This document shows, piece after piece, positions 21,812 through 39,527 of a DNA stretch of 64,000 bases. Each line of letters opens with the position of its first letter. Position 1 is the stretch's first letter. The stretch is from assembly GCF_000143965.1 (NCBI RefSeq), contig NC_014365.1, positions 1,081,501 through 1,145,500 on the forward strand, written 5' to 3'. The position numbers were made by a program, and so were the translations under genes. The notes below the pieces were generated by a model. The model was not told the DNA's origin, did no database searches, and was given only the letters and a program-made list of their open reading frames with translations. Origin of the DNA: Desulfarculus baarsii DSM 2075 (GTDB taxonomy: Bacteria > Desulfobacterota > Desulfarculia > Desulfarculales > Desulfarculaceae).

Positions 21812-23737
21812 ATGAGCATGCTTGCGTCTGATCATACGCGGTTGTTTCAGCGCCTGGCGAGGCTGTGGCAGCAACTATATCCTTATAAACATCGCATGAT
21901 CCAGGCGATGTTCATTCCGCAATACTATAAACTTCAAGCCGGGTTGGACCAGGCGGTGACCGATGAGCAGGCCTGGCGACACTGGCTTCTTGCTGGGCAT
22001 AAGCGCGAAATTGCGCTGAATCCGTTGTTTGATGCGGAGTATTACCGCCAAGTGTGGGCCGATAAAGAGCCACGCATAGCGAGTGAACCATCGGCGTTTA
22101 TGCATTGGCTCAAGCACGGCCTCCAAGAGAGAATCATCCCGACGGTATTGTTTGACGAAAAGTTTTATTTGCATGCGTATCCCGATGTTGTGGCCTGCGG
22201 AATGTGGTCGTTTGAGCACTTCATACGTTTTGGCGTAAATGAGCGGCGGTGGCCAAATGGCCTGTTCAGCTCGGGCCGATACATGGAGAAAAACAACGAC
22301 AATCTGAATGGCCTTGCCCCGTACTATCATTTTTTGATGTACGGCGACGATTGCGGTTTCAATGGCGATACGCACAATTTTGACCCGCGCGAATTTGGCA
22401 TGCCATCGTGGCGTGATTTATATCGTTTAGCGGTGGATAAAAACAGAGAATTTTTCGACGATCGCATACAGTGTGGGGTCTTGGCGGAAGTGCTTGAACG
22501 GGCCGCGCGCATTGAGCCACTGATCAACAAGCCGGCCGTGGCCGCGCGCGTGCTTCATATTCCGCCGTTCATGGGCCAACAAACCGGCACTTACGCCGCA
22601 GCGAAAAAGGCGAGGCTGGCGTTGCGCCGGCCGCATTATACAAATGTGGTTTGCATACCTCATTGCCGCGTGGGTGGCGCGGCGCGCGTCGCGGGCCTGT
22701 TCTGCCAGGCGCTGGCCAAAATTTTTCCTGATGAACCAACCTTGCTGATATTAACCGACTTGTCGGTCTTCGCTCGACCGGATTGGTTCCCCGACAATAT
22801 TGAGATTTTCGATCTTAGCGCGATTGTCGATGGATTGTCCGCCGCGCACAAACAAACGGTGCTCATGGATGTTCTGCGAGGCACAACTCCAGAAAGAATT
22901 GTCAACATAAATAGCCGTTTGTGCTGGGACACCTACATGGTGTTTGGCCAGCAACTATCGCAGTGGTCTCGACTTTTTGCCTATTTCTTTTGCTATGATA
23001 TTAATCCGCAGGGCCATAAGGTTGGTTACCCCATTGAGTTTTTTGCTCCAAGCTATAAATTTATGAGTGGGTATTTTTTTGATAATCAAGCATTGGTCGA
23101 TGAGTTGGAGTATCGCTATCTTTTGAAAAACAGTAGCGAGCATAAGTCCAAAGCTGTCTGGACGCCAATCGAGAGCGACTCCACGCTTTGCCTACATGCG
23201 CAGAAGTTGCAAAAAAAATCTGAAGTTTCGTCGAGATGGCGCGCTTTTTGGGCGGGCAGACTTGATCGGCAAAAACGCTACGATATCGTTGTCGAAATAG
23301 CCAACATGATGCCAGAGCTTGATATATGGACTTGGGGTCATGCGGTTTTGGACGGAGGATTTGACACCAAAAATCTGCCGCCGAATATGAAGTTTTTTGG
23401 CACGTTTGAATCATTTGATGATTTGCCGCTGCACGACTGTGACTTTTGGCTATACACCTCTGAGTGGGATGGTTTGCCGACGATGCTTCTGGAAACAGGA
23501 GTGCGTGGGATTGCCACCGTTGCGTCCAGAGTTGGCGGTACGGCCGATGTCATCAACGAAGAAACAGGTTGGCCAGTTGATGATTTTCTCGATCCACGCT
23601 CCTATGTCATGGCGATAAGGCAGATGATGGGAGATCCTGGCGCATGCCTGGCCAAAGCCGGTGCTTTGCGCGATTTGATTGCTGCGCGGCACAGTATGAA
23701 TCACTATGCAACTGAGATCGAGGCCGCACTAAAGTGA
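21812..23737 (+). CDS. Glycosyltransferase family 4 with three N-terminal FDxxYY repeats
   Basis: 641 aa. Residues about 60-215 hold three imperfect repeats: NPLFDAEYY, TVLFDEKFYLHAYPDV and NGLFSSGRYMEKN. Each is followed by a hydrophobic helix and a glycine turn (HWLKHG, HFIRFGVNE, HFLMYGDD). Such repeats are often attached to glycosyltransferases of surface polysaccharides. The C-terminal half (about 275-641) is GT4/GT-B: HCRVGGAARV, a FWAGRLDRQKRYD strand, and the nucleotide-sugar region TSEWDGLPTMLLE. It likely adds a sugar to a cell-surface glycan at the inner face of the membrane. The next gene overlaps its stop by 4 bases (GTGA). Confidence 0.85.
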   Translation: MSMLASDHTRLFQRLARLWQQLYPYKHRMIQAMFIPQYYKLQAGLDQAVTDEQAWRHWLLAGHKREIALNPLFDAEYYRQVWADKEPRIASEPSAFMHWLKHGLQERIIPTVLFDEKFYLHAYPDVVACGMWSFEHFIRFGVNERRWPNGLFSSGRYMEKNNDNLNGLAPYYHFLMYGDDCGFNGDTHNFDPREFGMPSWRDLYRLAVDKNREFFDDRIQCGVLAEVLERAARIEPLINKPAVAARVLHIPPFMGQQTGTYAAAKKARLALRRPHYTNVVCIPHCRVGGAARVAGLFCQALAKIFPDEPTLLILTDLSVFARPDWFPDNIEIFDLSAIVDGLSAAHKQTVLMDVLRGTTPERIVNINSRLCWDTYMVFGQQLSQWSRLFAYFFCYDINPQGHKVGYPIEFFAPSYKFMSGYFFDNQALVDELEYRYLLKNSSEHKSKAVWTPIESDSTLCLHAQKLQKKSEVSSRWRAFWAGRLDRQKRYDIVVEIANMMPELDIWTWGHAVLDGGFDTKNLPPNMKFFGTFESFDDLPLHDCDFWLYTSEWDGLPTMLLETGVRGIATVASRVGGTADVINEETGWPVDDFLDPRSYVMAIRQMMGDPGACLAKAGALRDLIAARHSMNHYATEIEAALK

Positions 23738-24477
23738 ACGCACAGGCGCAGTTTGAAATCAGCGCGATAATGACAGTTCATGGTGAAGGCGTGCTTGCAG
23801 GTTTGTCGCTGCGCAGCATGCTAGAAGCCGTCGATAATGTGCGGCATGACGCGGAAGCTGTGGAGCTGATGGTCGTGCTTGATTGTCCAGACAACGCCAC
23901 GAGATCGTTTGTGGAATCGTTGTCAGTTGACGGAATGGTTGTTTTAAACACTGATTTTGCCGACCAGGGTAAGGTTCGAAATCATGCGATAAAAAATGCG
24001 CGAGGACGGTACGTTGCGTTTCTTGACGGCGATGATTTGTGGAGCTTCAATTGGCTCAGCGCCGCATGGGATATGATACGCGCATGTGATGATGGAGCTA
24101 TCGTTCATCCAGAGTTTAATTGGTTGTTTGATATGTCTGGTGGAGTGTTGGAAAAGATTGAGATGTCTAATAGATTTTTTGACAAAGAATATTTGCGCGT
24201 CATGAATTATTGGGACGCATTGTGTTTTGCTTCAAAGGCTACGTATGAAACATTTCCTTATCCAGAGCGAAACATTTCCTCGGGTTTTGCCTACGAAGAC
24301 TGGTATTGGAATTGCGTCACCGTGGCCAGCGGCTACGAGCATGTTGTTGCGCCAGACACCGTGCACTTCAAGAGGCGCAGATCAGGCTCGCAAACAGTCG
24401 AAGCCAGTTCACGTAGGGCTCTGCCCAGGATGAACGGTTTTTTTGATTACAAATTTTTCTCTCAAGGTGAATTTTAA
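23734..24477 (+). CDS. Glycosyltransferase family 2
   Basis: 247 aa, GT-A fold. It has ISAIMTVHGEG at the start, VVLDCPDNA, then GKVRNHAIKNARGRYVAFLDGDDLW, where the DGDD is the metal-binding DxD. The start is a GTG inside the stop of the previous gene (GTGA), a sign of translational coupling. The enzyme is short, with little beyond the catalytic domain. Donor and acceptor cannot be read from sequence. It belongs to the AT-rich glycan cluster. Confidence 0.88.
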   Translation: MNAQAQFEISAIMTVHGEGVLAGLSLRSMLEAVDNVRHDAEAVELMVVLDCPDNATRSFVESLSVDGMVVLNTDFADQGKVRNHAIKNARGRYVAFLDGDDLWSFNWLSAAWDMIRACDDGAIVHPEFNWLFDMSGGVLEKIEMSNRFFDKEYLRVMNYWDALCFASKATYETFPYPERNISSGFAYEDWYWNCVTVASGYEHVVAPDTVHFKRRRSGSQTVEASSRRALPRMNGFFDYKFFSQGEF

Positions 24478-24516
24478 TTTGCGACAGTCTGATGATTGGT
24501 GAGCTGTGTGTTGACG

Positions 24517-25662
24517 ATGCTTCACAAAGATAAAAAATTTCTTCGCGCTGTTGTGGGAGTAGATTCATCCCATTGTGATAAAGCCCTGCCGGATGATACA
24601 GTGCAGGCGCTTTTGAGAAATATTATTGAAAACCAAACCGATTCAACGCAGCGCGTAAAACTGTCCTCTTATTATCGTTCGGTGGACAAGACTGATATTG
24701 CGGATAGAATCAGCTCTATTGGAGATGATTTGGCGGCTACAGAGATGGAACCGGTTGCGATTCAGATCTTTAGGGTTTTGTTGGACGGGAAGCTATATCA
24801 AGATTGTGACTTGCTGGTGGATGCGCTTATAGATAGTCGGCAAGAAGTTGATGTTTACAAAAAAATTGGAGACATTTATCGCATTGGTGGGCGGAACGAC
24901 AAGGCTATTGATGTTTTGTTGCGCGCGTGTGACGTCTGCAATAGTGCCGATAGCCTATATTATGAACTCGGCGAATTGTATGCCAAGGACGGCAACCATC
25001 GTGCTGCAGCAGATTTTTATTACAAAGCATCCGTGCTAAACCGGTCCATACTATTTTATTATTCAAAAATGAGCGAGGCTTTGTTGCGGCAAGGAGAAAT
25101 GTCTAAAGCGATTGAATATACGCAGAACATTATATCGCTGGGTACGGATAACCAGTACATAGTGTTCGGGCTTGGTAAATTATTGCTTGATGCCGAGAAC
25201 TACAAAGAAGCTGAGGCGCTATTCCAGCGCGCAATATCCATGGACAACACTGTTGCTATGTTTTATACGCATCTCGCTGAATGCTATAGTCGGCAAGGTA
25301 GAGTCCATGAGGCGATCGACTGTTTGAAAGGTATAATTTCGAAATTTTCTGATAAACCAAGCGTACATTACCTGCTTGCAAAGCTTTTGATCCGCACCAA
25401 GAAATTTACAGATGCCGAAGACGTAATTTCGAACGCTATATCTATAGATCCAACATCTAGCCTCTACTATCGACTTGCTGCGGAGTGTATGAGGCTGCAG
25501 GGAAAATTCGATGACGCTTGTCGATTGCTCAGACTGGCGATTAAACACGATGAGCTCAACCCAGCGCATTATTTTGAGCTATCGAGATGTTTGAAGCTCA
25601 CTGGAGACTTTCTTGGCGCAGAGCTGTTACATGATAGAGCGTTGGTGTTATGCCAATCGTGA
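24517..25662 (+). CDS. Tetratricopeptide-repeat protein
   Basis: About 381 aa made of TPR units. Recognisable ones include DVYKKIGDIYRIGGRNDKAI, SLYYELGELYAKDGNHRAAA, FYTHLAECYSRQGRVHEAI and SLYYRLAAECMRLQGKFDDA. There is no signal peptide or membrane segment, so a cytoplasmic scaffold for neighbouring glycosyltransferases is likely. The start is uncertain: TTG at 24496, GTG at 24499 and ATG at 24517 are in frame and none has a strong ribosome site. AT-rich codon use matches its neighbours. Confidence 0.8.
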   Translation: MLHKDKKFLRAVVGVDSSHCDKALPDDTVQALLRNIIENQTDSTQRVKLSSYYRSVDKTDIADRISSIGDDLAATEMEPVAIQIFRVLLDGKLYQDCDLLVDALIDSRQEVDVYKKIGDIYRIGGRNDKAIDVLLRACDVCNSADSLYYELGELYAKDGNHRAAADFYYKASVLNRSILFYYSKMSEALLRQGEMSKAIEYTQNIISLGTDNQYIVFGLGKLLLDAENYKEAEALFQRAISMDNTVAMFYTHLAECYSRQGRVHEAIDCLKGIISKFSDKPSVHYLLAKLLIRTKKFTDAEDVISNAISIDPTSSLYYRLAAECMRLQGKFDDACRLLRLAIKHDELNPAHYFELSRCLKLTGDFLGAELLHDRALVLCQS

Positions 25663-25676
25663 GCTGGTAAGATTTT

Positions 25677-26660
25677 ATGCCATGCGTGCTAAATCCTGAC
25701 TTTTGTAAAGCCAGTGTGGTCATTACCACCAAAAATCCTGGGCGTATATTTGACAATGTAATTGCGATGGTGCTTTCCCAAAAGACGCCATGGGACTACG
25801 AAGTCATAGTGATTGATAGCGGCTCAAAAGATGGCACTGTTGAAAAATTACGACTGCTTGATGATAAAATTACGCTGATATGTATTCGCCCAGAAGAGTT
25901 TGGTCATGGTCGCACAAGGAACTTAGGCGTTACGCATGCGCAAGGAGATTATGTTGCATTTCTCACGCATGATGCGGTGCCCGCAACATCCGAATGGTTA
26001 AGTGAACTTGTCACAGCATTAGAGCTTGATGTTACTGCTTGCGCCGCTTTTGGCCGACACATCGCACACAATGATGCAGATCCATTTACGAAGCGAGATC
26101 TGCAGGCTCACTTTGACTTTTTGGGCTCCACCACAACGGTGCAATCAAAATTCAGCGACCACATTCTTTACGATACTCAGATAAGGCATCGGCAGTTCTT
26201 ACATTTTTATTCAGATAATAATTCTTGTTTGAGGAAATCGGTATGGAAGGTCTATCCATATCCTGATGCGGAATTTGCCGAAGACCAGATCTGGGCTGCC
26301 ACCGTGATCGATGCTGGTTTTAGCCGAGTGTACGCTCATTCAGCAGTGGTAAAACATTCTCACGATTATTCTTCCATCGGCACTTTCCGTAGGGCGTTTG
26401 ATGAATCTGCTGCTTTTCAAAGGATATTTGGCTATTCATTGTGTGCAAGCCTTGTTAGAGGGATGTTGTCGGCGGCCAGCTGCTGCATGCATGACATGCA
26501 ATATGCGTTGATCAATAAACTGCCATTACGACGTGTCATCTCGAGAATTATACGAAACATATTGCGCAGTTTCGGTCATTATTTGGGTGCCAAAATTGAC
26601 CAAATCCCAACGAGCGTAGCCATGCAACTATCGTTAGATAAAAAGCTATATCGTTCTTGA
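25677..26660 (+). CDS. Glycosyltransferase family 2, rhamnosyltransferase-like
   Basis: The 327-aa protein opens with ASVVITTKNPG, followed by VIVIDSGSKDGT and FGHGRTRNLGVTHAQGDYVAFLTHDAVP. The THDA replaces the usual DxD, as in the RfbF/rhamnosyltransferase branch. The later EDQIWAATVIDAG segment is also typical of that branch. It would transfer rhamnose or a similar deoxysugar onto a lipid-linked glycan. It begins 14 bases behind the TPR gene and is probably in the same operon. Sugar specificity is inference from family resemblance. Confidence 0.85.
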   Translation: MPCVLNPDFCKASVVITTKNPGRIFDNVIAMVLSQKTPWDYEVIVIDSGSKDGTVEKLRLLDDKITLICIRPEEFGHGRTRNLGVTHAQGDYVAFLTHDAVPATSEWLSELVTALELDVTACAAFGRHIAHNDADPFTKRDLQAHFDFLGSTTTVQSKFSDHILYDTQIRHRQFLHFYSDNNSCLRKSVWKVYPYPDAEFAEDQIWAATVIDAGFSRVYAHSAVVKHSHDYSSIGTFRRAFDESAAFQRIFGYSLCASLVRGMLSAASCCMHDMQYALINKLPLRRVISRIIRNILRSFGHYLGAKIDQIPTSVAMQLSLDKKLYRS

Positions 26661-26675
26661 TTTCAGGTGGATGTA

Positions 26676-27848
26676 ATGGTTTTTTCTCATATCAGGGACG
26701 GGCTGCATGCCCTCCTGGTCAGGGGCTATGGCCTGATTGCACCCAAGCAATCCGTCGACAAAAGATTTGATTTCGTTTCATGCGCTCCCTTTGGTCCTTC
26801 ACACAAAGATGTGAAGCCATCATGCAACACCGTCAACTGGTTCGTCCCACCAATTGGTTATGGGAGTGGTGGCCATTTGAACATCGTAAGATTTATTAAA
26901 CTGCTAGAGGATGATGGATTTGAATGCAGGATTGTTGTTACAAATGAATTTCGCCCGTATGATAATAAAAAAATAGCATCGCAAATTTCGGAATGGTTTG
27001 CGCCAGTCAAAGCAAAAGTATATTTGCATCCACAAGATACAATTCCTGCGGCGCATATATCAGTCGCTACTGGTTGGCAGACTGCTTATCCAGTAAAATA
27101 TTTTTCGGGTAGCGCGCATAAGTATTATTTTGTTCAAGATTATGAACCATATTTTTATCCTTTGGGCACCGAGTACTTTTTGGCTGAGGATACATATCGT
27201 TTTGGATTCACGGGGATTGCTTTAGGCTCGTGGTTAGCGGACATGCTTAGTGCTCAATACGGAATGCGAATGTATGGAATAGGTTTTTCATATGATGATG
27301 ATCTGTATACGCCGCGATTAGATAAAGATTGTTCCGGGCCTAAACGCTTGTTGTTCTATGCGCGACCGGAAACACCTCGCCGTGCATTTGAACTTGGTGT
27401 TTTAGCTATAAACGATGTGAAAAAACATATGCCGTCAGTTGATGTTCTCCTGGTCGGTGGAAACTTGAGCCGATATAATCTTCCTTTTTCATTTAAAGAT
27501 TGTGGCAGATTGCCTATTTCCGAGCTTCCGCATTTGTACTCACAGTGCGATGCCGCCTTGGTGCTATCAATGACCAATTTATCGCTTTTGCCTCTTGAAA
27601 TTATGGCGTGCGGTTGTCCTGTGATCAGCAACTGCGGACCCAATGTTGAATGGATGCTGAACAGCACCAATTGTAAGCTCAGCCGGCCTACTGTCTCAGG
27701 ATTGGCAGAAGCAATCATTTCGGTTCTCTCAGACGAGCGCGAACGAAAGCAGTTGATAAAAAATGGTCTTGACTATGCCAGATCAACAAGCTGGAAAGAG
27801 GAGGCAAAAAAAGTCGCGCAAATATTCCGGCAAACTTATAATGAATAG
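26676..27848 (+). CDS. WsaF-like glycosyltransferase (GT-B)
   Basis: About 390 aa. The order of motifs fits the WsaF-type rhamnosyltransferases. An NWFVPPIGYGSGGHLNIVRF strand-loop comes first. YYFVQDYEPYFYPLGTEY and GIALGSWLADML follow, and a C-terminal Rossmann domain holds LLFYARPETPRRAFELG and NLSLLPLEIMACGCPVI. WsaF acts in S-layer glycan synthesis. I prefer the ATG at 26676 because AGGTGG lies 5 bases before it; the GTG at 26667 lies inside that site. The end overlaps the epimerase start by 8 bases. Confidence 0.82.
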   Translation: MVFSHIRDGLHALLVRGYGLIAPKQSVDKRFDFVSCAPFGPSHKDVKPSCNTVNWFVPPIGYGSGGHLNIVRFIKLLEDDGFECRIVVTNEFRPYDNKKIASQISEWFAPVKAKVYLHPQDTIPAAHISVATGWQTAYPVKYFSGSAHKYYFVQDYEPYFYPLGTEYFLAEDTYRFGFTGIALGSWLADMLSAQYGMRMYGIGFSYDDDLYTPRLDKDCSGPKRLLFYARPETPRRAFELGVLAINDVKKHMPSVDVLLVGGNLSRYNLPFSFKDCGRLPISELPHLYSQCDAALVLSMTNLSLLPLEIMACGCPVISNCGPNVEWMLNSTNCKLSRPTVSGLAEAIISVLSDERERKQLIKNGLDYARSTSWKEEAKKVAQIFRQTYNE

Positions 27849-28875
27849 TCATGGTCGTATCAGCATGGCAAATGAGTTTTCATCTGATTTGAATAATTTC
27901 AGACATGTGGTGGTTGGTGCTGGTGGCTTTTTGGGCACAAACATTTCCGCTGGTTTCAAAAAATCGAATCTAGACTTGCTATGCATCGATGCTTGCGAAC
28001 GGCCAAAGTATTCTAACCATGCCGGCGAAAAAAATTGGCTATCCGGCACGTTGTCAGACAAGGAATTCTTTGTTGAACATCTGAAACCCAACGACATTGT
28101 ATACCATTTGGTCAGCACGACAAACCCAAGCAACTCGGACCTTGCGCCAGATAAAGATGTTGAAGATAACTTGATAGGATCCCTGAAATTGTTCCAGGCG
28201 TGCAGTGAAAGACGTATTAAAAAGCTTATTTTTATTTCTTCTGGCGGCACCATATATGGGCCTGACGCTCCCGTCCCAACTCCTGAATTTGCAGACACAT
28301 CACCGATTTGCTCTTATGGGGCAACCAAACTCGCTATTGAAAAATATCTGGAAATTTTTCGTAAGCAGCATGGACTTGACTATATCATATTTCGTGTCTC
28401 CAACGCTTATGGCCCATTTCAGATCGCGCGAGGTCAAGGCATAATTGCAATGGCTCTGCACAGGTTTTTCCATGATGAACCGCTGGAAATTTGGGGAGAC
28501 GGCAGTGCAGTACGTGATTACATCTTTGTCGATGACATCGTGTCAGCCGTTTTGATGGGCGCCGCGTCGTCGACGCAATCTCCTCGGCTCTATAACCTTG
28601 GCAGCGGAGTTGGCCACTCGGTCAACGAGGTCGTTGAGGCGCTCAATTTTGCCCTTGGCGGCAGACTTGAAACGGTCAGGCGTGAAGGCAGAAGTGTGGA
28701 CGTTCCTCGTAGCATTTTGGACATTGAGCGGATCAAGCTACACTTGAATTGGCGGCCAAAAATTGACCTTAAGGCAGGAATCAGCGCTACGGTGAATTGG
28801 TATAGAGAGTTCATTCGATGCTCGGGGCAAGACCATAACCACGAATATTCTCGTGCCGACGAAAAAATAAATTAA
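27841..28875 (+). CDS. NAD-dependent sugar epimerase/dehydratase
   Basis: 344 aa, extended SDR. The nucleotide site is VVGAGGFLG (a GxGGFxG variant), the catalytic pair lies in SYGATK (Tyr and Lys), and FISSGGTIYG precedes it. The C-terminal part contains VDVPRSILDIERI, seen in UDP-glucose 4-epimerase-like proteins. It likely makes a nucleotide sugar for the surrounding transferases. The start overlaps the previous gene by 8 bases; an ATG at 27865 is the alternative. The exact reaction (C4 epimerisation, dehydration or reduction) cannot be told. Confidence 0.85.
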   Translation: MNSHGRISMANEFSSDLNNFRHVVVGAGGFLGTNISAGFKKSNLDLLCIDACERPKYSNHAGEKNWLSGTLSDKEFFVEHLKPNDIVYHLVSTTNPSNSDLAPDKDVEDNLIGSLKLFQACSERRIKKLIFISSGGTIYGPDAPVPTPEFADTSPICSYGATKLAIEKYLEIFRKQHGLDYIIFRVSNAYGPFQIARGQGIIAMALHRFFHDEPLEIWGDGSAVRDYIFVDDIVSAVLMGAASSTQSPRLYNLGSGVGHSVNEVVEALNFALGGRLETVRREGRSVDVPRSILDIERIKLHLNWRPKIDLKAGISATVNWYREFIRCSGQDHNHEYSRADEKIN

Positions 28876-28888
28876 TGGCGCTGCAAGC

Positions 28889-29884
28889 ATGGTAGGCACA
28901 TTTCGCAAGGCTTTGATCACGGTTATAATTGTCAATTATAATGCGAAGACGCATTTGGCAAGATGCCTGGATGCCTTGCGCGAACAAACCGTGCAAGACT
29001 TTCATATTGTCCTCGTTGACAACGCCTCCACCGACGGATCGCTGAACGAAATTTACACCAACGAAAACCTAACCGTGGTTCGCCTTGCAGAGAATGTAGG
29101 TTTTGCCGCGGCCAACAACATTGGGGCGCTAAGATCGCAAAGCGAATTCATTGCATTGCTCAACCCAGATGCTTTTCCCGCGCCGACTTGGCTCGAAAAA
29201 CTCATGGAGCACGCAAAAGCCTACCCAGAATACGCGGCGTTCGGCTCAACTCAGTTGCTTGACGCCAATTCTGACCTGTTGGATGGCGCTGGCGATGTTT
29301 TGTATTTTTTTGGTTTGCCGCGGCGTTCGAAACACCTCGAACGCGCAATACCTCTGCCGCCGACTCGGGAAGTTTTCAGTCCATGCGCCGCTGCCGCTTT
29401 GTATCGTCGGCATCTTTTCGTGGGTGTTGGCGGCTTGGACGAGGCGTTTTTTTGCTATTGCGAAGACGTTGATTTGGGCTTCAGGTTAAGGTTGCGCGGG
29501 TATAAATGTTTGCAGGTCGCCGACGCGATAGTGCGGCATGTCGGCGGGGGCTCAAGCGGACAAATTTCAGGGTTTGCCGAGCGACATGGCCATAGAAACG
29601 CTTTATGGATGCACATAAAAAACATGCCAATGCCGTTGTTGGCGCTGACCCTACCATGTCACTTCATTGCCGAGTTTGCCAAAGCAATTTTCGACATTGC
29701 AAGCCCAAGCCGTGGCCGTCTTGCGCAACGCGCGCATAACGTTAAATGCCGAATCCAAGGGATTTGCGAGGCGTTGGCGCAAATAGGTCCGATGATGCTT
29801 CAACGGAGGATCATCCAAGAAAAGCGTGTGATCTCCAGCTGTTCCGTGGCCAGGACGCTCTGCTGGCGTCCGTGGGCTAGTTGA
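28889..29884 (+). CDS. Glycosyltransferase family 2, rhamnosyl/galactofuranosyl-type
   Basis: 331 aa with ITVIIVNYNA, VDNASTDGS, NVGFAAANNIG, then LLNPDAFP (DxD-like) and GGLDEAFFCYCEDVDLGFRLR. These are the hallmarks of the WcaA/rhamnosyl GT2 branch (COG1216). The C-terminal 80 residues are helical and may contact the membrane. It is the last gene of the AT-rich cluster. Its stop overlaps the stop of the converging chemoreceptor gene by 8 bases, which leaves no room for a terminator. Confidence 0.88.
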   Translation: MVGTFRKALITVIIVNYNAKTHLARCLDALREQTVQDFHIVLVDNASTDGSLNEIYTNENLTVVRLAENVGFAAANNIGALRSQSEFIALLNPDAFPAPTWLEKLMEHAKAYPEYAAFGSTQLLDANSDLLDGAGDVLYFFGLPRRSKHLERAIPLPPTREVFSPCAAAALYRRHLFVGVGGLDEAFFCYCEDVDLGFRLRLRGYKCLQVADAIVRHVGGGSSGQISGFAERHGHRNALWMHIKNMPMPLLALTLPCHFIAEFAKAIFDIASPSRGRLAQRAHNVKCRIQGICEALAQIGPMMLQRRIIQEKRVISSCSVARTLCWRPWAS

Positions 29885-31415
29885 TTTCCGTGGACATTTT
29901 TTCGGGCAATGCGCGCTGAATCGCGGCGTCTTGCCCGCTGTTATACGATGTGCGGAACGTGCCCATTGTCGTAGCCAGATTGGCCGCTTGCGCCGCACCT
30001 TGCCCAGTGGCGTTATCTATTTCGCGCAGAGAATTGCTTATGCCGGCGATGCCCGTGTCTTGTTCTTGAGATGACATGGCCACCCCCGCCATCAATTCGG
30101 CCGCTTGCTCGATTATCTGTTGCACGCCGCCAAATGCTTCGTGGGTGGCGGTGACCAATTCGCCACTTTCTTGAATCTTGCCAATGGTGCCATCGATGAG
30201 TTGGGCGGTGTTGCGCGCGGCCTCGGCCACGCGCAGGGCCAGGCTGCGCACCTCGCCCGCCACCACGGCAAAACCTGCGCCGGCCTCGCCGGCCCGGGCC
30301 GCCTCGACGGCGGCGTTGAGGGCCAAGAGGTTGGTTTGGAAGGCTATCTCGTCGATGGTCTTCATGATATTGGCGACTTGGCGGCTTGATTCACGCAGCT
30401 CATCCATCGCCCCGGAAAGATTGGCGATACTTTTGCCGGACTGCACGACTTGCGCGGTCACCGCGCTCATCAGATCGGCGGCGGTCTTGGCGTCGGCCGC
30501 GTTTTCCCTGGTCAGGGCCGTGATGTCGTTGGCCGCGTGGGAAATCTGCTCGATGGCCGCGGCCTGTTGGCCGGCTTGTACGCCCGTGGCCGCGGCGACT
30601 TGCTGGGAATGGCCGATGACGTCGTTGAGTTTTTGCACGAAACGATTGAGCAACTTGGCTGCTTGCCCTATTTCATCCCTGCTTTGAATGGGCATTTCCA
30701 GAGTCAGGTCAACGTCATATTGGGTGAGCATTTCGACGAGCTTGGCCATTGGCTGGTCGACAAAACGTCGTACGGTTAGGAACAGGCACAGCGCTACCAA
30801 AACCAAAACGCCGGCCACCGCGGCCAAAGCTGTTTGCAGGGAGTTGGCTTTTAGCACGGCCATATTGTCGGCGGCTTCGGCTTCCGCTTGGCGCAAAGCA
30901 GCGGTGGAAAAACGATAGAAAGTGACGCCTCTGATTTCACCGTTGCGCCAGGAAATGTGGCAACGAATGCAGTCGGCGCTCACTTTGTGAGGCTGGTATA
31001 TCTCCAAGGCGTTTTGCGTTTGTCGATAGTGAGTCTGTGGTTCGTTCAACACCTTGGCGGCCATGGTTTTGTCCAGCCGCGAGCCCAAAAATTTGCGATT
31101 GGAGGAGTGAGTCGCAACTCCCGCGGCGCTGAACAGGCTGACTTCCTCCAGGCCCTTCAGTTGGCGTAGCGACTCTAAAAGGCTGGTGAATTTTTCCATC
31201 TCGCCGCGCACCAGCGAACCTTGCACGGCGCGTTCGATGGTGAAAAATAAATTGTCCGCCTGCTGCTTTTCGCTCTGTTCCAGCATCTCCAGGCGGTGCG
31301 CCGTCATCTCGGAGACCAGGTTGATGGTCCAGTTGTATTGAAATATCTGCACGGCGCATAGGGCCGTGATCAAGACCAAAGCCAGGGATATCAGCAGCTT
31401 GGTGCGCAGCTTCAA
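29877..31415 (-). CDS. Methyl-accepting chemotaxis protein with c-type heme sensor domain
   Basis: 512 aa. TM1 spans about residues 7-26. A periplasmic domain (27-190) carries a single heme-c site, Cys149-x-x-Cys152-His153, in a DUF3365-like context (ISWRNGEIRGVTFYRF). TM2 is at about 194-215, HAMP at 216-270, and a cytoplasmic signalling domain holds the MCP hairpin around 357-395 (EIAFQTNLLALNAAVEAARAG). No pentapeptide for CheR/CheB docking ends the protein. The start is TTG, overlapping the hydrogenase small-subunit stop as TTGA, with GGAGG 6 bases before it. It is thus the third gene of the hydrogenase operon and probably reads out that enzyme's redox output. Confidence 0.93.
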   Translation of the reverse strand: MKLRTKLLISLALVLITALCAVQIFQYNWTINLVSEMTAHRLEMLEQSEKQQADNLFFTIERAVQGSLVRGEMEKFTSLLESLRQLKGLEEVSLFSAAGVATHSSNRKFLGSRLDKTMAAKVLNEPQTHYRQTQNALEIYQPHKVSADCIRCHISWRNGEIRGVTFYRFSTAALRQAEAEAADNMAVLKANSLQTALAAVAGVLVLVALCLFLTVRRFVDQPMAKLVEMLTQYDVDLTLEMPIQSRDEIGQAAKLLNRFVQKLNDVIGHSQQVAAATGVQAGQQAAAIEQISHAANDITALTRENAADAKTAADLMSAVTAQVVQSGKSIANLSGAMDELRESSRQVANIMKTIDEIAFQTNLLALNAAVEAARAGEAGAGFAVVAGEVRSLALRVAEAARNTAQLIDGTIGKIQESGELVTATHEAFGGVQQIIEQAAELMAGVAMSSQEQDTGIAGISNSLREIDNATGQGAAQAANLATTMGTFRTSYNSGQDAAIQRALPEKMSTEIN

Positions 31416-32341
31416 TTGCGGCCTCCTTTGCCCCTGGCCAACTCGGTCTTGCGATAAAACGGCAGTTCGGCCGAACGTGCGAATCCCTCCGACGCGCAGC
31501 CGATGCACGGCGCGCCGGCGGCGATGCAGGTGTTGACGCCGCCATTCCAGAAACGCACCGTGCAATCGGCGTGGGTGATCGGCCCCAGGCAGCCCAGCTT
31601 GAACAGGCAACCCGGTTCGCCAAAGGTCTTGGCGAAATTTTCCCGCTCGTAGTCGGCAAACCGCGGGCATTGATCGTGCAAGATGCGACCATAAAAGGCT
31701 TTTGGCCGCTTGAGGGCGTCCAGGGGCGGCAGGCCCCATTGCAGTAGGTGAGCCAACGTCCCCACCAGCCAATCGGGGTGGGTCGGGCAGCCGGGCAGAT
31801 TGATCAACGGCGTTTTGACCCCTTGCGCCTCGAGGAATTCGGCCACGCCGACCGCGCCGGTGGGGTTGTTTTGCGCCGCGGGGATGCCGCCAAAGGCCGC
31901 GCAAGAGCCGAGGGCCACCACGGCCTTGGCCTTGGCCGCGGCGGCTTTGACCAGATCGGTCACCGGGCGGTGGCCCATGACGCACGCCTCGGGCATGCCG
32001 GCGGGTAGCGAACCCTCGACCACCAGCAGGTAGCCGCCGGCGTCGATGGCCTTGTCCACCGTGTCCATGGCGGTCTGACCGGTGGCCGCCGAGAGGGTGG
32101 AGTGGAACAATAAAGAGATGTAGCGCGTGATGACCCGAGCTGGCGAAGGCGCTTCGGAGTTTAAAAACGACACGGAGCAGCCGGAGCAACTCTGGCCCTG
32201 CAGCCATAGCACCGGGGCCTGGCCAGCCTCCATCCGCGCCAGGGCCTGGGCCAGGCTTGGCGCCAAGCTTGGCTCAAGTCCCATGACCGCGGCCAGGGTC
32301 GCGCCGAATTTCAAAAATTGACGCCTGGTTATGCTGGCCAT
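31412..32341 (-). CDS. [NiFe] hydrogenase small subunit, Tat-exported
   Basis: 309 aa. A Tat signal (TRRQFLKF, residues 5-12) is followed by a hydrophobic segment. The proximal cluster is bound by Cys52, Cys55, Cys147 and Cys185; the distal one by His222, Cys225, Cys245 and Cys251. The medial site has four cysteines (260, 272, 279, 282), where common uptake enzymes have a Pro and a [3Fe-4S] cluster, so three [4Fe-4S] clusters are predicted. There is no C-terminal membrane anchor. I chose ATG 32341 (GGAGA 5 bases upstream) over GTG 32344. The end overlaps the chemoreceptor start by 4 bases. Confidence 0.94.
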   Translation of the reverse strand: MASITRRQFLKFGATLAAVMGLEPSLAPSLAQALARMEAGQAPVLWLQGQSCSGCSVSFLNSEAPSPARVITRYISLLFHSTLSAATGQTAMDTVDKAIDAGGYLLVVEGSLPAGMPEACVMGHRPVTDLVKAAAAKAKAVVALGSCAAFGGIPAAQNNPTGAVGVAEFLEAQGVKTPLINLPGCPTHPDWLVGTLAHLLQWGLPPLDALKRPKAFYGRILHDQCPRFADYERENFAKTFGEPGCLFKLGCLGPITHADCTVRFWNGGVNTCIAAGAPCIGCASEGFARSAELPFYRKTELARGKGGRN

Positions 32342-32353
32342 CACGGTCTCCGC

Positions 32354-33856
32354 TCAGTGAACCGCGCAGGCCAGGCACGGATCGAACGAACGCACGATCC
32401 TGGCGGCCTCCAACGGGTTTTGCGGGTCGGCCACCGGCAGGCCTTCGAGGGACGACTCGACCGGGCCGGGCACGCCGGCGTCGTCGCGGGGCGAGCAGTT
32501 CCAGGTGGTGGGCACGACACACTGATAATTGGCGATGCGGTAGTCGGCGATCTCGATCCAGTGGCCCAGCGCGCCGCGCGGCGCTTCGATCAGGCCCGCG
32601 CCCGCGCCGCTGGCGGGCACGTCGAAGTCGGCATAGGTCGGCTCGCCTGGTTTGAGTTGGTTGATCCAGCGCGCGCAGGCCTCGGCCACCAGCTTGCATT
32701 CGATGGCGCGGGCGGCATGGCGGCCCATGGCCGAGTTGAGCTCGGCCGGTTGGCGGCCAAGAGCGCCGAGGAGCTGATCGACCATCTCCCGCACCTGGGC
32801 CTGGCCGGCCTGGTAAGCCACCAGAATGCGCGCCAACGGGCCAACCTCCTGCGGGCGATTGTCGTAGCGCGGTGCTTTCAGCCATGAATAGGCCCCGCTT
32901 TTGCGTGGCGCGGGTATTGTTTGGCCCTTGGTCGGATGCAGGCCGGACGGAGAAGAGAACAGCGAATGGGTGGTCTGCTCGGTGATCTTGGTCAGATCCA
33001 ACGACGCGGCCTGGCCATGGCTGACGCGTCCGGCTGGCAGCAGAAAGCCGTCCTCTTGGGGAAAGACGCCATAGGCCATGAAGTCACCGGGGCCGGCGCC
33101 ATGCTGAAAATACTCGGGAAACGCCGTGGCGACGGCCAGGATGTCGGGCAGGTAGGCCGTGTCGATGAAAACGCGCAACTGATCGATGATGGCGGCGTAA
33201 GCGGCGATTTTTTTGGCGCTGACCTGCTCGGTGACGCCGCCGGGCGCCAACGCCGTGGCGTGAGGAACCTTGCCGGCCCAGATGGCCACGGCCTGATGGG
33301 CCAAGGCGCGCATGTCAAGGGCCTGCAAATAGTGCTTCAGCGCTCCCACGTTGAGGCCGGCGTCTTGAATGTAATGGCCGGCGTAGCGCGGCAGAAACGG
33401 CGCGCCGGGGCTGATGGCCCCAGCCTTTCGCTGGCCGCTCACCCAATCACGCAGATCGTTCAAGGCCGGGTCCGCCCCGTGATAACCCAGAATGGCTGTC
33501 ACGTCGACAAAGTCTAGCGCGGAAAGTTGATAAAAATGAATAAGATGAGACTGAATATAATTGGCGCCCAAGATCAGGTTGCGCGCGATGACGCCATTGG
33601 GGGTCAGCGCTGGGTTATATATCTGCTCCTGGGCCAAAATAGAGGCCAAGCCGTGGGAGATGGGACAGACGCCACAGATGCGCTGGGTGATTTGCTGGGC
33701 GTCGAGTGGGTCGCGTCCTCTGAGTATGTTCTCGAAGCCACGGAACATTTCCCCCGCGCAATAAGCACTGGCCACCTTGCCGCCATCAAGCTCAAGACGA
33801 ATGCCCAAGTGCCCTTCGATGCGGGTCAACGGCGAAAGCTCAACTAGGGTGCCCAT
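32354..33856 (-). CDS. [NiFe] hydrogenase large subunit lacking a C-terminal extension
   Basis: 500 aa. The N-terminal nickel-site motif is RICGVCPISH (Cys61, Cys64). The C-terminal motif DPCLACAVH (Cys494, Cys497, His500) is followed directly by TGA. Most [NiFe] large subunits carry about 15 more residues that an endopeptidase removes after nickel insertion; here there is nothing to remove. Both nickel ligand pairs are cysteines, with no selenocysteine. The small subunit starts 12 bases later. No maturation genes lie nearby, so Hyp proteins must come from elsewhere. The enzyme would oxidise H2 in the periplasm, carried by the Tat signal of its partner. Confidence 0.95.
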   Translation of the reverse strand: MGTLVELSPLTRIEGHLGIRLELDGGKVASAYCAGEMFRGFENILRGRDPLDAQQITQRICGVCPISHGLASILAQEQIYNPALTPNGVIARNLILGANYIQSHLIHFYQLSALDFVDVTAILGYHGADPALNDLRDWVSGQRKAGAISPGAPFLPRYAGHYIQDAGLNVGALKHYLQALDMRALAHQAVAIWAGKVPHATALAPGGVTEQVSAKKIAAYAAIIDQLRVFIDTAYLPDILAVATAFPEYFQHGAGPGDFMAYGVFPQEDGFLLPAGRVSHGQAASLDLTKITEQTTHSLFSSPSGLHPTKGQTIPAPRKSGAYSWLKAPRYDNRPQEVGPLARILVAYQAGQAQVREMVDQLLGALGRQPAELNSAMGRHAARAIECKLVAEACARWINQLKPGEPTYADFDVPASGAGAGLIEAPRGALGHWIEIADYRIANYQCVVPTTWNCSPRDDAGVPGPVESSLEGLPVADPQNPLEAARIVRSFDPCLACAVH

Positions 33857-34251: not shown

Positions 34252-37095
34252 TCAGCCGAGAGCCTCCTTCACGGCGGTCACGCCATTTCTGGCGTTGCCC
34301 AACAGCCTGTAAACGCGCAAGGGAGGGGCGTCATTTCCGGGCAATGGGCCAAGGTTAGCGAATTTGGCGATGAGCAGATTCATCAAAAGATCGCTGGCTG
34401 TCGTTATGACCAGCTTGAGTTTTCCTTTTTGCTCGATCGCCAGCATTCGCACAATATCGATCACGGCGACGCGATTGAGGTCGTCAAGGTGCGCGAAAGG
34501 TTCATCAAGGAAATATGTGCCGCCAGCTTCCCGTGCACGCGCAAGGAAGATTGACAGTGCAAGGTCTTGGCGCTGACCACGGCTGAAATATTTGGAGGGA
34601 GAGAGCGGGACGCCATTTTCAATATAGGCCACGATATCGGTAATATTGATTTGGTTGTCATGGCTGGAGAAATCAACTTTGTTAAAGATGCTGTTTGTAT
34701 TCATTCTGGAGAATAACGCAAACATGACATCTTTCAAGTCAGAAAGAGCGGCGCGTCTTTGTTGGGAAAATTGTTGGCGATTAAATTTAATGATATTATT
34801 GCACGATGAGATTTTCTTGTTTAGCAATGTTATGCACTCATTTATTTTATCAGCAGAACTTTGAAGACTTTCACGCTTGGCGCCATTGGTTAAAATAAAT
34901 ATGCATGCGTCGATGTTTGCTAATTCATTCCGAGCGCTTGATGCAACATCGTTGTCTGCTTGAATAGAGTGCTTGAGAGATAGTAATTCCTCGTCAGAAA
35001 ATGGTATGTGTTTGCCAATAGACTCCCACGCAAGTTTGAAAGCTATCTCGTTATGATGAAGTTTATTAATTATTTCCATGGCTGATGTATGTCTGTCTGA
35101 CGCTTGCTCAAAGGCCAGTTCAAGAGTAGCCAGCTCTTCCTCGGTGCGGTGCAAATCCTGGCGAGCAGCGGCATCTTTTGCTTTCAGTTCTTCGGCCGCC
35201 ACCTCAAAAAACCTGGATAATGCATCGCGCAAGCCAAGAAGAGAAAGTTTCTCTGGTGCTGAAATATTCAGCGCGCTGTGGATGGACTCCATGTCATGCC
35301 ACAGCTGAGCGAGATGGCCGGCGACATTCAGGCCTCTGATGATGTCTTTCAACGACCGGTGGATATCGTCGAAATCAAAATCATCGACAAGGCGTTTGCA
35401 TGAAGAAATATAGTCATTCCACTTTTGTTCACGTTCGTTAATTTCTTGGCGGATTATGGACAAGCGCTCTTTGTTGGAATTGTAAGTATTGATGTCCTCC
35501 GTTAGCGCGCAAATTTCCTGCTCGATTCGTTCTAATGACTGGCGAAGTTGAGCTTCCTTTGAAGAAGAATAGTCGATGCCGAGGTCTGTGCTGCTGGAAA
35601 CTGCATTGAACAAATCGTGCGCGGTTTTCCAGTCGTGCCCACAGGTTGGGCACACACTTTGAGTTTTTATGGCGGGCAGGGCATTGCGCGCGTAAACTTT
35701 CAGCTGCGTAAGATCGTCCGTTATCTTGGCTAATTGGCTGCGTAAAATCGCCCGTTTAGACTGTGCTTGATCCAGCCTGCCTTCAAGAATTGAAGCTTTG
35801 GCTGTTTCGGTTTTTACGAGATTTGATAGTTTGTGTGACTCAGAGCGAACACGGTCAAGCTGATAGTTGTTCTCCACGGCTTGTGGATAGACTTCAAGTA
35901 AATATGACGCGCTCTGCAGCAAACTTTTGCGCGCCATAAGGTCGATCTTATAATACTGGTTTGTTTTAAATATTTCCTCGACTGTTTTGGATGATATCTC
36001 TGGATAATATGTAACAATGGAAGTGATTGTTGAGGCGACATGTTCACAAATATCAGATACGGAAGAATGCTGTGCGGCGAGTGATGCAACTTCCATGTTA
36101 AGTGTATTGATCTGCTGCTTTTTTTGGGCAATTTGCGTGGAAACGTTGGCCAAATTATCCAGTTGAGCGTGCCTGTCCGCACCGGACGCTTCAGCTTTTT
36201 CTTTTAGCTGAGTTATATCATCAATAAGTTGTCTGATGTAATCAATTTCTTGTTTTCTCTTTTCGATATGCGCGACAAATCGATCAAGCTTGTTCGAAAT
36301 TCTCTGCTTCATGTCGACGATTTCATGGAGATCGTTAACAGCGCCAAGCGGTTCGATCTGGATATTTAATAGCAATATGCAGGCATTGATTGACTTTTTC
36401 GTATCGCTGAAAATATGCTCATATCGAGCGGGGTCTGGTGGCAAGTCTCCAGTATCGTCTATGAGTTGCTTAATTTTTTCTGCCCGCCTTTTTTCTAGCT
36501 TGAGATTTGCATTAAGAAGTCTTATGAAGTTTTTAACTATATCGTTTATATCATTAAGATGACTCATGCCAAGTAAATCATAAAAAATTTGTTCACGCAG
36601 ACCTGATGATTCGCTATCCACCATCGTTGAAAGCGAATCTTGATAAAAAAAGTGTTTGCCCCATAAATGGTTTTGATGCAGCTCCAGCAGGCGAGCGTAA
36701 TCATGATTTTCGGCACTTAATACGGAATTTTTTATAAACGTATTTAGGTATTCCAACGATGATTTAACTATATCGCTATCGCGCTGATCTGATTTATCAG
36801 TTTTCCATTTGCCATCATTGCAAGTTACATATTCGCCAGAAATTTCGCCACAGATCAGAAAGCTATCTTTTTTTGTCAAGCACGCACATTCACTCCAACA
36901 ATTATTCATATCTGCATTAATACGTTTCGAGCGAATTCGGCGCGTAAACAATAATTCAGCAGCTTGCAATAGCGTGGTTTTACCTGTTCCATTGGGCGCA
37001 TATATCAAAGTGATCGGTGAGGAAAAGTCGAGCTCAATGCTGCCTGCAAGGCCACGAAAATTAACAACTTTTATGCTAGAGAATTGTACTGACAT
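34252..37095 (-). CDS. Rad50/SMC-like ABC ATPase of a three-gene conflict system
   Basis: 947 aa. Walker A is NGTGKTT (35-41). A long coiled-coil arm runs to about 480, a CPTC zinc hook (Cys482, Cys485) marks the hinge, a second arm returns, and the C-terminal head has SRGQRQDLALSIFLAR (signature) and FLDEPFAHLDD (Walker B plus D-loop). This is the layout of Rad50/SbcC and of LmuB-type ATPases of Lamassu defence. The start is ATG 37095, inside the end of the middle gene; a TTG at 37122 is less likely. AT-rich codon use sets it off from the hydrogenase genes. It probably binds DNA ends and licenses the effector. Confidence 0.88.
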   Translation of the reverse strand: MSVQFSSIKVVNFRGLAGSIELDFSSPITLIYAPNGTGKTTLLQAAELLFTRRIRSKRINADMNNCWSECACLTKKDSFLICGEISGEYVTCNDGKWKTDKSDQRDSDIVKSSLEYLNTFIKNSVLSAENHDYARLLELHQNHLWGKHFFYQDSLSTMVDSESSGLREQIFYDLLGMSHLNDINDIVKNFIRLLNANLKLEKRRAEKIKQLIDDTGDLPPDPARYEHIFSDTKKSINACILLLNIQIEPLGAVNDLHEIVDMKQRISNKLDRFVAHIEKRKQEIDYIRQLIDDITQLKEKAEASGADRHAQLDNLANVSTQIAQKKQQINTLNMEVASLAAQHSSVSDICEHVASTITSIVTYYPEISSKTVEEIFKTNQYYKIDLMARKSLLQSASYLLEVYPQAVENNYQLDRVRSESHKLSNLVKTETAKASILEGRLDQAQSKRAILRSQLAKITDDLTQLKVYARNALPAIKTQSVCPTCGHDWKTAHDLFNAVSSSTDLGIDYSSSKEAQLRQSLERIEQEICALTEDINTYNSNKERLSIIRQEINEREQKWNDYISSCKRLVDDFDFDDIHRSLKDIIRGLNVAGHLAQLWHDMESIHSALNISAPEKLSLLGLRDALSRFFEVAAEELKAKDAAARQDLHRTEEELATLELAFEQASDRHTSAMEIINKLHHNEIAFKLAWESIGKHIPFSDEELLSLKHSIQADNDVASSARNELANIDACIFILTNGAKRESLQSSADKINECITLLNKKISSCNNIIKFNRQQFSQQRRAALSDLKDVMFALFSRMNTNSIFNKVDFSSHDNQINITDIVAYIENGVPLSPSKYFSRGQRQDLALSIFLARAREAGGTYFLDEPFAHLDDLNRVAVIDIVRMLAIEQKGKLKLVITTASDLLMNLLIAKFANLGPLPGNDAPPLRVYRLLGNARNGVTAVKEALG

Positions 37096-37699
37096 CGTCT
37101 GAATCCCCGATATATGATTCAATCAAAATGATGATTTCATCCTCGCTTGCGTTGGCCAGTTGACGCATGAGGATCTCATCATCTTTGCATAATGATATTA
37201 GCGTGCTATCAGCATTTGCGGCTGCACTTTTGGCAAAAGGCAAAGACAGTATGGGTATGCGCCTGATCCGCTCTTCCCAGGCGGAAGGATCATCAGGATC
37301 GCCAACCGGCCAAATTATTTGTTTGCGACACAGGTATAAGTCGCTTTCAAGGCTCTGAATTGTGCCGTGTAGATCGTCGCTGCCCACGACTCTATTTTCT
37401 TCATCAAGCGCAGGCGATCTATACGTGTTCATGTCATGCGCAATCGCCAAGATAAGGTAGCCATCAACTATCTTATGCTTACGGCGCTTTTCGCCAAGTT
37501 TTTGCGATAATATGGCCAGGCCTTCACCATGAGAACTTTTCAGCTTTGACGCGATAGGTTCGTCGATTACGACTAGTGCTACCACGGCATAGTCTGATTC
37601 CCAAAGTGTGCAATTGGCCGCATCTGCCGCGCTATCAGCTAGTGTTAGTCCGACGGGATTAGCGTAGGAATCAATACAATCAACACATGCGTTATGCAT
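37076..37699 (-). CDS. Middle component of the SMC-linked conflict system
   Basis: The 207-aa product is of unknown family. It has a Cys-rich start (ACVDC), a conserved-looking core KIVDGYLILAIAHD followed by LESDLYLCRKQIIWPV, and an acidic end. No membrane segment or nuclease motif is visible. Its size and place, between an effector-like gene and an SMC-like ATPase with overlaps on both sides (8 and 20 bases), match the LmuC or middle component of Lamassu and ABC-three-component systems. The assignment rests on context only. Confidence 0.65.
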   Translation of the reverse strand: MHNACVDCIDSYANPVGLTLADSAADAANCTLWESDYAVVALVVIDEPIASKLKSSHGEGLAILSQKLGEKRRKHKIVDGYLILAIAHDMNTYRSPALDEENRVVGSDDLHGTIQSLESDLYLCRKQIIWPVGDPDDPSAWEERIRRIPILSLPFAKSAAANADSTLISLCKDDEILMRQLANASEDEIIILIESYIGDSDDVSTIL

Positions 37700-39527
37700 A
37701 AGACACGCTTCCTGAGCTTAACATGCCAATTATACCTGATAGCCTCATGCAATTTATTTTGCTTGTCGTTGCGTCTTGATAGCAGTTTTCAATAGTCGTC
37801 AGCGGCAATAAATATATTGAAAATGGTCGCGGGGGTGATCCGATGCTTTCGCTAGGCGCGTGTGTTATGGATGACGCGCCTGGCGTGATCTGGTCCTCAT
37901 CGATGTGTCCCATGCCGGGAGCAATGCACATGATCAGTGGCTTTTTGTATTGCGTTAGCGAATTTTCCATGGCATTTTTCATATCATATGCATGTTTTGA
38001 TTTGTCAGACCAAATATTAATATCAATATTGCCAATATTTGTTCTGAGTTGCGCTGTCTCTTCCGCAACTAGGTGCGCGATATTGCAATACATAAGTACG
38101 GAAATGCAACGCAGGGCCTTTATCAGATCATCTCGGTGCTCATGCAGCTTATCGCATAAAGAGGTCGAATAGCTTCCTGGCGCCATTCCACTTTTTATCA
38201 AGGCGATAAGATTATCTGCTTGCACGCCCTTAATGGTCGTTTTGATCTGTAATTTCAACCAACAGAGCGCTGAAAATATCTCCTTGGTTGCATGATGCCC
38301 GTATCCGCAAGAGCAGTTTCTGCAAATAAATCTCGCAAGCTCATAGGGTTGATGCTCAAATTCGCTATACTCTCTAAGCTGATAGCTCAGGCCATGATCG
38401 TGGTTTGTTGTTATCTGATTGTGTAGCGTGGCGGGCCAATTATGTCTTTCAGCATCAGGTACAGTTTTGAACTTCAACTTGCCTGATATCAACAGGGGTT
38501 CCGTTGATCGCACCAACCTGGCAACAAAGTTTCCGTTCTTATGAAGCCTTGTCCCTTTTTTGATCTCATGTTTTACGATATGCGCAGCATCGGCATGAAT
38601 ATATATTCCACTTAAATTACGTAGTTTGTCGTTTGACTCATCCTTGTCATGCTTCCCCATCGCATGATTGGCCAGTGCGATTGCAAAATGGTTATGAGCT
38701 GTAATGTCAAGATTAGTAAATATTCTATTTAACGCATCTTGCCATGCTGAAGCATGTGGGTCTTTTTGATATAATTGCCCGGCAACAAGTATGTATTTTC
38801 GTGTTGCTTCAGGAAGCAGATTGGTCTTGTTGCATACTGTAACCATTTCACTGGTGGGGGTTTTGCCATCACCATTATAAATGAAGTCGGAGCAAATAAT
38901 TGGCCAAATATCGAGGCCATTTGTCTGTATGCAAACCTGCGAAACGCCGCCATCTAAATAATCAATCTGTCCCAACTCTGCACATTGCTCTGGGAAATGC
39001 TTAACATAAATTACGCTTTTAGTCGTGAGCTTTTCCGTGCCATCAGCAGGATATCTTAGCCAGCACCATCCATAATTATATCGCCGTTTGGCCCCGGGAA
39101 ACCCCTCCTCGTCCTCGCGCCAGCTTTTTATGATTTCCGTTCCGTGATGCCGTGTCCTGTCTGTAAAAATCTCATTTAATTTATTGCCATGCGTAAATCC
39201 GAACCCCGCTATAAGCACTATCTTCCCTTTGTATTTATTGATTAAATCATTTATCGTATACCAATCTTTAACGCCAAATGTCAGTTCTGGAAACATGATT
39301 ATAATTGGTTTATTGCCTGGAAAATGATCGCCTATTTCTTGTTCCAAAAACTCCTTGACCAAGTTTACATATTCAGGGCGGCTGTCGTCATATAGCCGCT
39401 CTCTTTTTGGTGGTGGCGTTTGCACCAGGCATAAATTCAGATGGTTGCTGTCCACGAAATCGCCGGGCACTTTTACATTGTGCACATACAAGCCATTGCC
39501 TTTTTTTGCCCCGCGTGCCCTCGGCAT
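37692..39527 (-). CDS. Nitrilase-fold protein, candidate effector of the conflict system
   Basis: 611 aa. Residues about 30-300 fit a carbon-nitrogen hydrolase: Glu81 in MFPELTFG, Lys176 in IYVKHFPEQ and Cys212 in WPIICSDFI. These make the Glu-Lys-Cys triad with family spacing, and a typical later strand, NHFAIALANHAMG, follows. The C-terminal half is unrelated and has a Cys-rich ICRNCSCGYGHH patch, possibly a metal site. Nitrilases hydrolyse amides or nitriles; in NAD synthetase they release ammonia. The first gene of the operon is where Lamassu-type systems keep their toxic effector. The target is unknown. AAGGGTG precedes the ATG. Confidence 0.72.
   Translation of the reverse strand: MPRARGAKKGNGLYVHNVKVPGDFVDSNHLNLCLVQTPPPKRERLYDDSRPEYVNLVKEFLEQEIGDHFPGNKPIIIMFPELTFGVKDWYTINDLINKYKGKIVLIAGFGFTHGNKLNEIFTDRTRHHGTEIIKSWREDEEGFPGAKRRYNYGWCWLRYPADGTEKLTTKSVIYVKHFPEQCAELGQIDYLDGGVSQVCIQTNGLDIWPIICSDFIYNGDGKTPTSEMVTVCNKTNLLPEATRKYILVAGQLYQKDPHASAWQDALNRIFTNLDITAHNHFAIALANHAMGKHDKDESNDKLRNLSGIYIHADAAHIVKHEIKKGTRLHKNGNFVARLVRSTEPLLISGKLKFKTVPDAERHNWPATLHNQITTNHDHGLSYQLREYSEFEHQPYELARFICRNCSCGYGHHATKEIFSALCWLKLQIKTTIKGVQADNLIALIKSGMAPGSYSTSLCDKLHEHRDDLIKALRCISVLMYCNIAHLVAEETAQLRTNIGNIDINIWSDKSKHAYDMKNAMENSLTQYKKPLIMCIAPGMGHIDEDQITPGASSITHAPSESIGSPPRPFSIYLLPLTTIENCYQDATTSKINCMRLSGIIGMLSSGSVSYA

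Follow-up and report, generated by a model that had tools for sequence, protein, structure and literature searches.

An exported [NiFe]-hydrogenase encoded with a heme-bearing chemoreceptor: a probable periplasmic H2 chemosensor

The hydrogenase–MCP operon

The window, the whole 64,000-nucleotide stretch of the Desulfarculus baarsii DSM 2075 genome that was analysed, carries on its minus strand a three-gene operon for a [NiFe]-hydrogenase and a methyl-accepting chemotaxis protein (MCP). Its features are as follows.

32354..33856, minus strand: [NiFe]-hydrogenase large subunit, 500 aa (PF00374, E 2.6e-154)
31412..32341, minus strand: [NiFe]-hydrogenase small subunit (TAT_signal; Oxidored_q6, PF01058; NiFe_hyd_SSU_C, PF14720)
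29877..31415, minus strand: heme-c MCP, 512 aa, TTG start (MCPsignal, E 7.5e-39)
30863..31334, minus strand: predicted periplasmic sCache sensor domain of the MCP, about residues 28–184 (AlphaFold model, pLDDT 87)
31197..31199, minus strand: Met73 of the RGEM motif of the MCP, candidate distal ligand of the heme (cf. Met60 of GSU0935)
30957..30971, minus strand: CIRCH c-type heme attachment motif of the MCP, residues 149–153
29880..30780, minus strand: HAMP and MCP signalling region, from family search

Gene order, export signal and heme motif, and the intactness of the active-site and Fe–S ligands, can all be read directly from the DNA. The first-pass annotation had described three co-directional genes, the first two 12 bases apart and the last two overlapping in TTGA, and this holds: the gap is 12 nt when ATG 32341 is taken as the small-subunit start, and TTGA joins the small-subunit stop to the TTG start of the MCP. 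Its other structural claims also stand. The small subunit has a Tat signal (TAT_signal match, motif RRQFLK), and the CxxCH domain of the MCP is flanked by two transmembrane segments (hydrophobic residues 1–27 and 190–221, with CIRCH between them). No transmembrane anchor was found in the small subunit. The third protein has an MCPsignal domain behind a transmembrane sensor, as an MCP should; its HAMP domain scores slightly under the cut-off, and that of the MCPs at L195 and L058 above it.

The large subunit contains two CxxC pairs (RICGVC and DPCLAC) and the small subunit the ligands for three [4Fe-4S] clusters, which together identify a [NiFe]-hydrogenase. The second CxxC pair is encoded with a Cys codon, not selenocysteine, the NiFeSe feature. 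The large subunit terminates exactly at DPCLACAVH, without a cleavable C-terminal extension, a feature that the first-pass annotation did not mention. Elsewhere the genome holds a separate, ordinary uptake hydrogenase with the order small–large and a C-terminal extension. The sole HypD (G000:C1:3034980-3036014) is encoded well away from either hydrogenase operon, which means that the two must share their maturation.

Other genes in the window include a heterodisulfide-reductase-like cluster (15230-20335, plus strand) with two HdrA-type proteins, an HdrC-like ferredoxin and HdrB (NCBIfam, Pfam), and a glycan cluster (21812-29884, plus strand) with several glycosyltransferases, a sugar epimerase and a TPR protein, which converges on the MCP gene. 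Just upstream of the hydrogenase lies a three-gene cassette (34252-39527, minus strand) encoding a 956-aa SMC-type ATPase that resembles Lamassu LmuB (PADLOC, E 2e-33); its 207-aa and 611-aa proteins gave no family match. The cassette is possibly an undescribed defence system. It was considered as part of the hydrogenase–MCP unit and rejected, because it is not seen beside the unit at L033, L058 or L195 and also lies about 400 bp away from the hydrogenase.

Recurrence and linkage across the clade

The small-subunit alignment, run against 84,980 species genomes, found at least 22 further loci of the large–small–MCP kind. Past these, there is an abrupt shift to hydrogenases that have the order small–large and a C-terminal extension and that lack an MCP. 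The large–small–MCP order is also found in G003, of the window's family, and in G082, of another class of the same phylum; one locus (L048) has the order small–MCP–large. With 14 more loci from a phylum survey, the tree sample comprised 39 loci of this kind and 85 other hydrogenases. The 39 form one clade in the small-subunit tree (SH-aLRT 97), with the 85 outside it.

An MCP adjoins the small subunit at 39/39 clade loci versus 0/85 outside the clade in the tree sample, which excludes a chance arrangement; the MCP is visible at 36 of the 39, and L052, L054 and L062 are contig ends showing the receptor start only. Other apparent exceptions were resolved: L060, L065 and L066 have an MCP that falls outside the search motif, and at L050 the MCP frame is broken in the assembly. 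The large subunit lacks the C-terminal extension, ending in DPCxxCxxH, in 39/39 clade members versus 1/85 others (L099), so the clade enzymes are systematically unlike respiratory ones.

A separate, independent survey applied a small-subunit profile to 395 evenly drawn genomes of the window's phylum. The result was 21 loci scoring 400 bits or more, spread over 20 genomes; no match fell between 353 and 400 bits. An MCP is adjacent at 20 of the 21, the remaining locus (L179) being at a contig end, and no MCP stands beside the ten lower-scoring matches (at or below 353 bits) that were examined. An MCP-less hydrogenase pair in most relatives had been named at the outset as the observation that would speak against an H2 sensor; the opposite is seen, with 39/39 and 20/21 loci linked, and the unit, searched for across genomes, recurs in at least seven phyla. 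These are, by record titles, Thermodesulfobacteriota, Omnitrophota, Hydrogenedentes, Verrucomicrobiota, Riflebacteria, Planctomycetota and Lentisphaerota, and individual placements may be wrong because many members are metagenome-assembled genomes (MAGs).

Some loci have features of their own. At L056, in a Verrucomicrobia MAG, two tandem heme MCPs follow one hydrogenase (about 7726-11147, plus strand). In G003, an integrase-like ORF (L033, 10211-11407, minus strand) sits immediately upstream of the unit, which is followed downstream by nitrogenase-type genes (nifA-like, nifH and nifI, recognized by eye); this copy of the unit may be on mobile DNA.

The MCP sensor domain and its heme

The MCP sensor is predicted to have an sCache fold. 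Its AlphaFold model forms a single Cache domain and matches in Foldseek WalK (Z 12.5, 2.5 Å), 3b42 (Z 9.5, 2.2 Å, 77 residues), 3b47 and 5b82; the c-heme sensors GSU0935, GSU0582 and Tll0287 are among the matches. When the sensor was compared with PDB sequences by profile search, nothing but designed proteins and noise came up. Since the Pfam models match only below their cut-offs (PF21563 at 14.1 of 27 bits, PF11845 at 12.4 of 24.1 bits), the sensor is a divergent branch of the sCache_heme family.

Across 22 aligned sensors, the strongest conserved features are (S)LxRGEM and DCxRCH. The proposal of a heme-bearing receptor stands for 34 of the 36 complete receptors, which have CxxCH (CxRCH in 32 of the 34) at a near-fixed distance from RGEM/RGQM, and fails for the other two, where CxxCH is absent. 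The Met of RGEM, RGQM or KGNM is present in 34/34 CxxCH receptors and is Ala in both receptors without CxxCH. In GSU0935 the sixth heme ligand is Met60, which precedes the first CxxCH Cys by 80 residues (PMC8396549). The corresponding distance in the window MCP is 76 residues, and by this analogy Met73 is a probable heme ligand.

The two receptors without heme (L064, 7954-9531; L067, 7966-9603) retain the sensor domain and the pairing with hydrogenase. They belong to one hydrogenase subclade (Planctomycetota/Lentisphaerota), a branch that has lost the heme. The pairing persists here with neither CxxCH nor Met, so the heme is not indispensable in these two.

Whether the CxxCH sensor is exclusive to this hydrogenase had been posed as a check, and it is not: in the window's phylum, 10 of the 30 sensor matches examined are unlinked to a hydrogenase. 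These heme-Cache receptors are L134, L140, L145, L147, L148, L150-L153 and L155, and at L140 and L151 a CheA gene lies within about 5 kb. The CxRCH variant occurs in 32/34 linked heme sensors versus 1/10 unlinked ones.

The proposed electron path

Among the aligned small subunits, the ligands that we assign, by analogy with solved relatives, to the medial cluster (C260, C272, C279, C282) and the distal cluster (H222, C225, C245, C251) are all invariant, so the Fe–S chain to the protein surface is intact. Four members, L064, L144, L146 and L154, have Glu or Asp in place of the second Cys (CSGC) of the cluster taken to be proximal (CSGE, CSGD, CTGD). At 20 of the 21 loci examined, no ORF within 4 kb has more than one CxxCH motif. 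Therefore, in these 20 neighbourhoods no multiheme cytochrome competes as an acceptor beside the genes, and the unit itself shows no heme protein besides the MCP.

Periplasmic hydrogenases are able to pass electrons to distant cytochromes encoded away from them, which counts against the MCP-heme route. The energetics would allow that route. The H2/H+ potential is −414 mV, below the potentials of Geobacter heme MCPs. The latter are −156 and −251 mV (PMC8396549), and for hemes at such potentials even a low partial pressure of H2 should suffice for reduction.

Co-divergence and links to chemotaxis genes

The small subunit and the sensor have diverged together. Over 36 modules, their distances correlate with a Mantel r of 0.87, a raw value for which shared descent accounts in part; the MCP signalling domain, on the same protein and the opposite side of the membrane, provides an internal control. 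Small-subunit and signalling-domain distances give r 0.54 in the same modules. The partial r between small subunit and sensor, given the signalling domain, is 0.82, and that between small subunit and signalling domain, given the sensor, is 0.00.

Three members of the clade lie among chemotaxis genes, two of them (L195 and L058) within complete che operons. At L195 (G297, in the window's phylum), one strand reads large subunit–small subunit–MCP–CheA–CheW–CheB–CheR–CheX/Y. At L058 (Riflebacteria), the order, also on one strand, is CheW–STAS–large subunit–small subunit–MCP–CheA–CheB, and at L047 (Omnitrophota), cheA and cheW lie upstream of the unit on the opposite strand. CheA is encoded in 37/37 unit-carrying genomes versus 289/395 phylum genomes, a modest excess that is uncorrected for kinship. 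Carriers have several CheA per genome; the window genome has three, together with three strong flagellin matches. The che operons around the unit and the co-divergence of sensor and small subunit lend the H2-signalling interpretation of the first-pass annotation further support.

Proposed mechanism and alternatives

The three-gene unit most likely lets cells sense H2 and respond to it, as judged from gene content and conservation. There is good reason to think that the operon specifies a chemosensor for H2 in the periplasm, in which the signal would run from hydrogenase through the Fe–S chain and the MCP heme to CheA. The Tat system would export the hydrogenase dimer via its small subunit, and H2 would be oxidized in the periplasm. 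Electrons would then cross the three small-subunit Fe–S clusters to the MCP, where they would reduce the one c-type heme of its sCache domain. A change in heme redox state and axial ligation, probably Met73 going on or off as proposed for the Geobacter heme MCPs, would be relayed via HAMP to the signalling tip, alter CheA activity and so make the cell respond to H2. Three steps of this scheme are inferred: that electrons reach the heme, that its ligand switches and that the output is flagellar steering. For the clade as a whole it is fairly likely that a separate group of exported [NiFe]-hydrogenases, spread over at least seven phyla, supplies chemosensory arrays with their H2-binding component and signals by passing electrons into a covalent heme of the receptor.

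The alternative that survives best, though itself unlikely, is an H2 sensor whose CheA output is not swimming: it would act on pili, on gene expression or on a different Che-like pathway. It agrees with the preferred explanation as far as CheA, and the confidence placed in the two overlaps. Dedicated CheB or CheB/CheR genes accompany the linked CheA at L195 and L058, carrier genomes have several CheA each, and carriers include MAGs of phyla rich in non-motile members, all of which fit this alternative; flagellins and several CheA in the window genome speak against it.

A less probable, distinctly doubtful possibility is that the hydrogenase signals conformationally, by direct protein contact as in HoxBC–HoxJ, with the heme only tuning redox or oxygen sensitivity. 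Such signalling is possible at least in L064 and L067, whose heme-less receptors remain linked; the co-divergence of small subunit and sensor would suit a contact surface, and the C-terminal extension is missing as in HoxC-type sensors. However, heme motif and Met are retained in 34/36 receptors, and the distal and medial Fe–S ligands are intact in all aligned members, which implies that electrons exit.

It is very improbable that this is an ordinary respiratory uptake hydrogenase feeding a periplasmic cytochrome pool beside a co-regulated redox or NO/O2 receptor with a different input: the nearest solved relatives are indeed periplasmic [NiFeSe]/[NiFe] uptake enzymes and heme MCPs unlinked to hydrogenase do occur, but the 39/39 linkage, the reversed large–small order, the missing processing peptide, the surrounding che operons, a unit with neither multiheme cytochrome nor membrane-anchor gene and the separate normal uptake hydrogenase of the window genome all argue otherwise. 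The one signalling-type heme-sCache domain tested elsewhere binds NO and acts as an NO sensor (preprint, PMC12889525), which favours this respiratory alternative and counts against the H2 chemosensor. NO could, by analogy, be a second input to the heme sCache receptor; as an explanation NO binding is insufficient, because it leaves the fixed hydrogenase partnership unaccounted for.

Significance and comparison with known systems

In anoxic habitats, H2 plays a central part as an electron carrier. Taxis towards H2 has reportedly been seen in a methanogen. No described H2 chemoreceptor was found in the literature searched, and no published account of this hydrogenase–MCP unit in the open-access literature. 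A 2025 study of NiFe-hydrogenase neighbourhoods has an MCP cluster in a table, uncommented (PMC12727194). The unit offers a concrete set of genes with named Cys, His and Met mutation targets, in cultured bacteria, Desulfosarcina cetonica JCM 12296 (L050) among them, and in uncultured ones. If the H2 chemosensor is real, the chemotactic signal would be the product electron of a redox enzyme instead of a ligand, and H2 would be sensed by a dedicated enzyme–receptor pair instead of via metabolism. The clade, now likely counted as respiratory in metagenome surveys, would then be split from energy metabolism.

Group 2b regulatory hydrogenases, too, are not known to carry a large-subunit C-terminal extension. 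The HoxBC/HupUV members of that HydDB group are, like the present unit, H2-sensing [NiFe] heterodimers with a signalling-protein partner. They differ in being cytoplasmic and without Tat signal, whereas the window small subunit has TAT_signal and the RRxF motif, and in their partner, which is the histidine kinase HoxJ/HupT instead of the transmembrane heme MCP found in all members here. Cytoplasmic H2 sensing by HoxBC through the kinase HoxJ has been reviewed (PMC6978683). MCP signalling has been proposed for the "chemotactic (putative)" group C2 of the [FeFe]-hydrogenases (HydDB, PMC5037454), which have an [FeFe] active site and belong to another family; the present enzymes match PF00374 and PF01058/PF14720.

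On the receptor side, the closest systems are GSU0935, GSU0582 and DcrA, together with the sCache_heme family (Tll0287/DUF3365). They share a single c-type heme in a periplasmic Cache/PAS-like MCP domain, and a Met is the likely sixth ligand. No pairing with a hydrogenase is known for any of them, and the window sensor differs from them in scoring below the Pfam cut-offs and in its CxRCH variant.

On the enzyme side, periplasmic [NiFeSe]/[NiFe] hydrogenases (HydDB group 1a; 1CC1, D. vulgaris HysAB) are the best sequence match for both subunits. They share the Tat-exported small subunit and the [4Fe-4S] medial cluster ligands. However, they have a C-terminal extension and respiratory partners; the clade described here has neither the extension nor selenocysteine, and is set apart by Cys in its place, the order large–small and a constant MCP.
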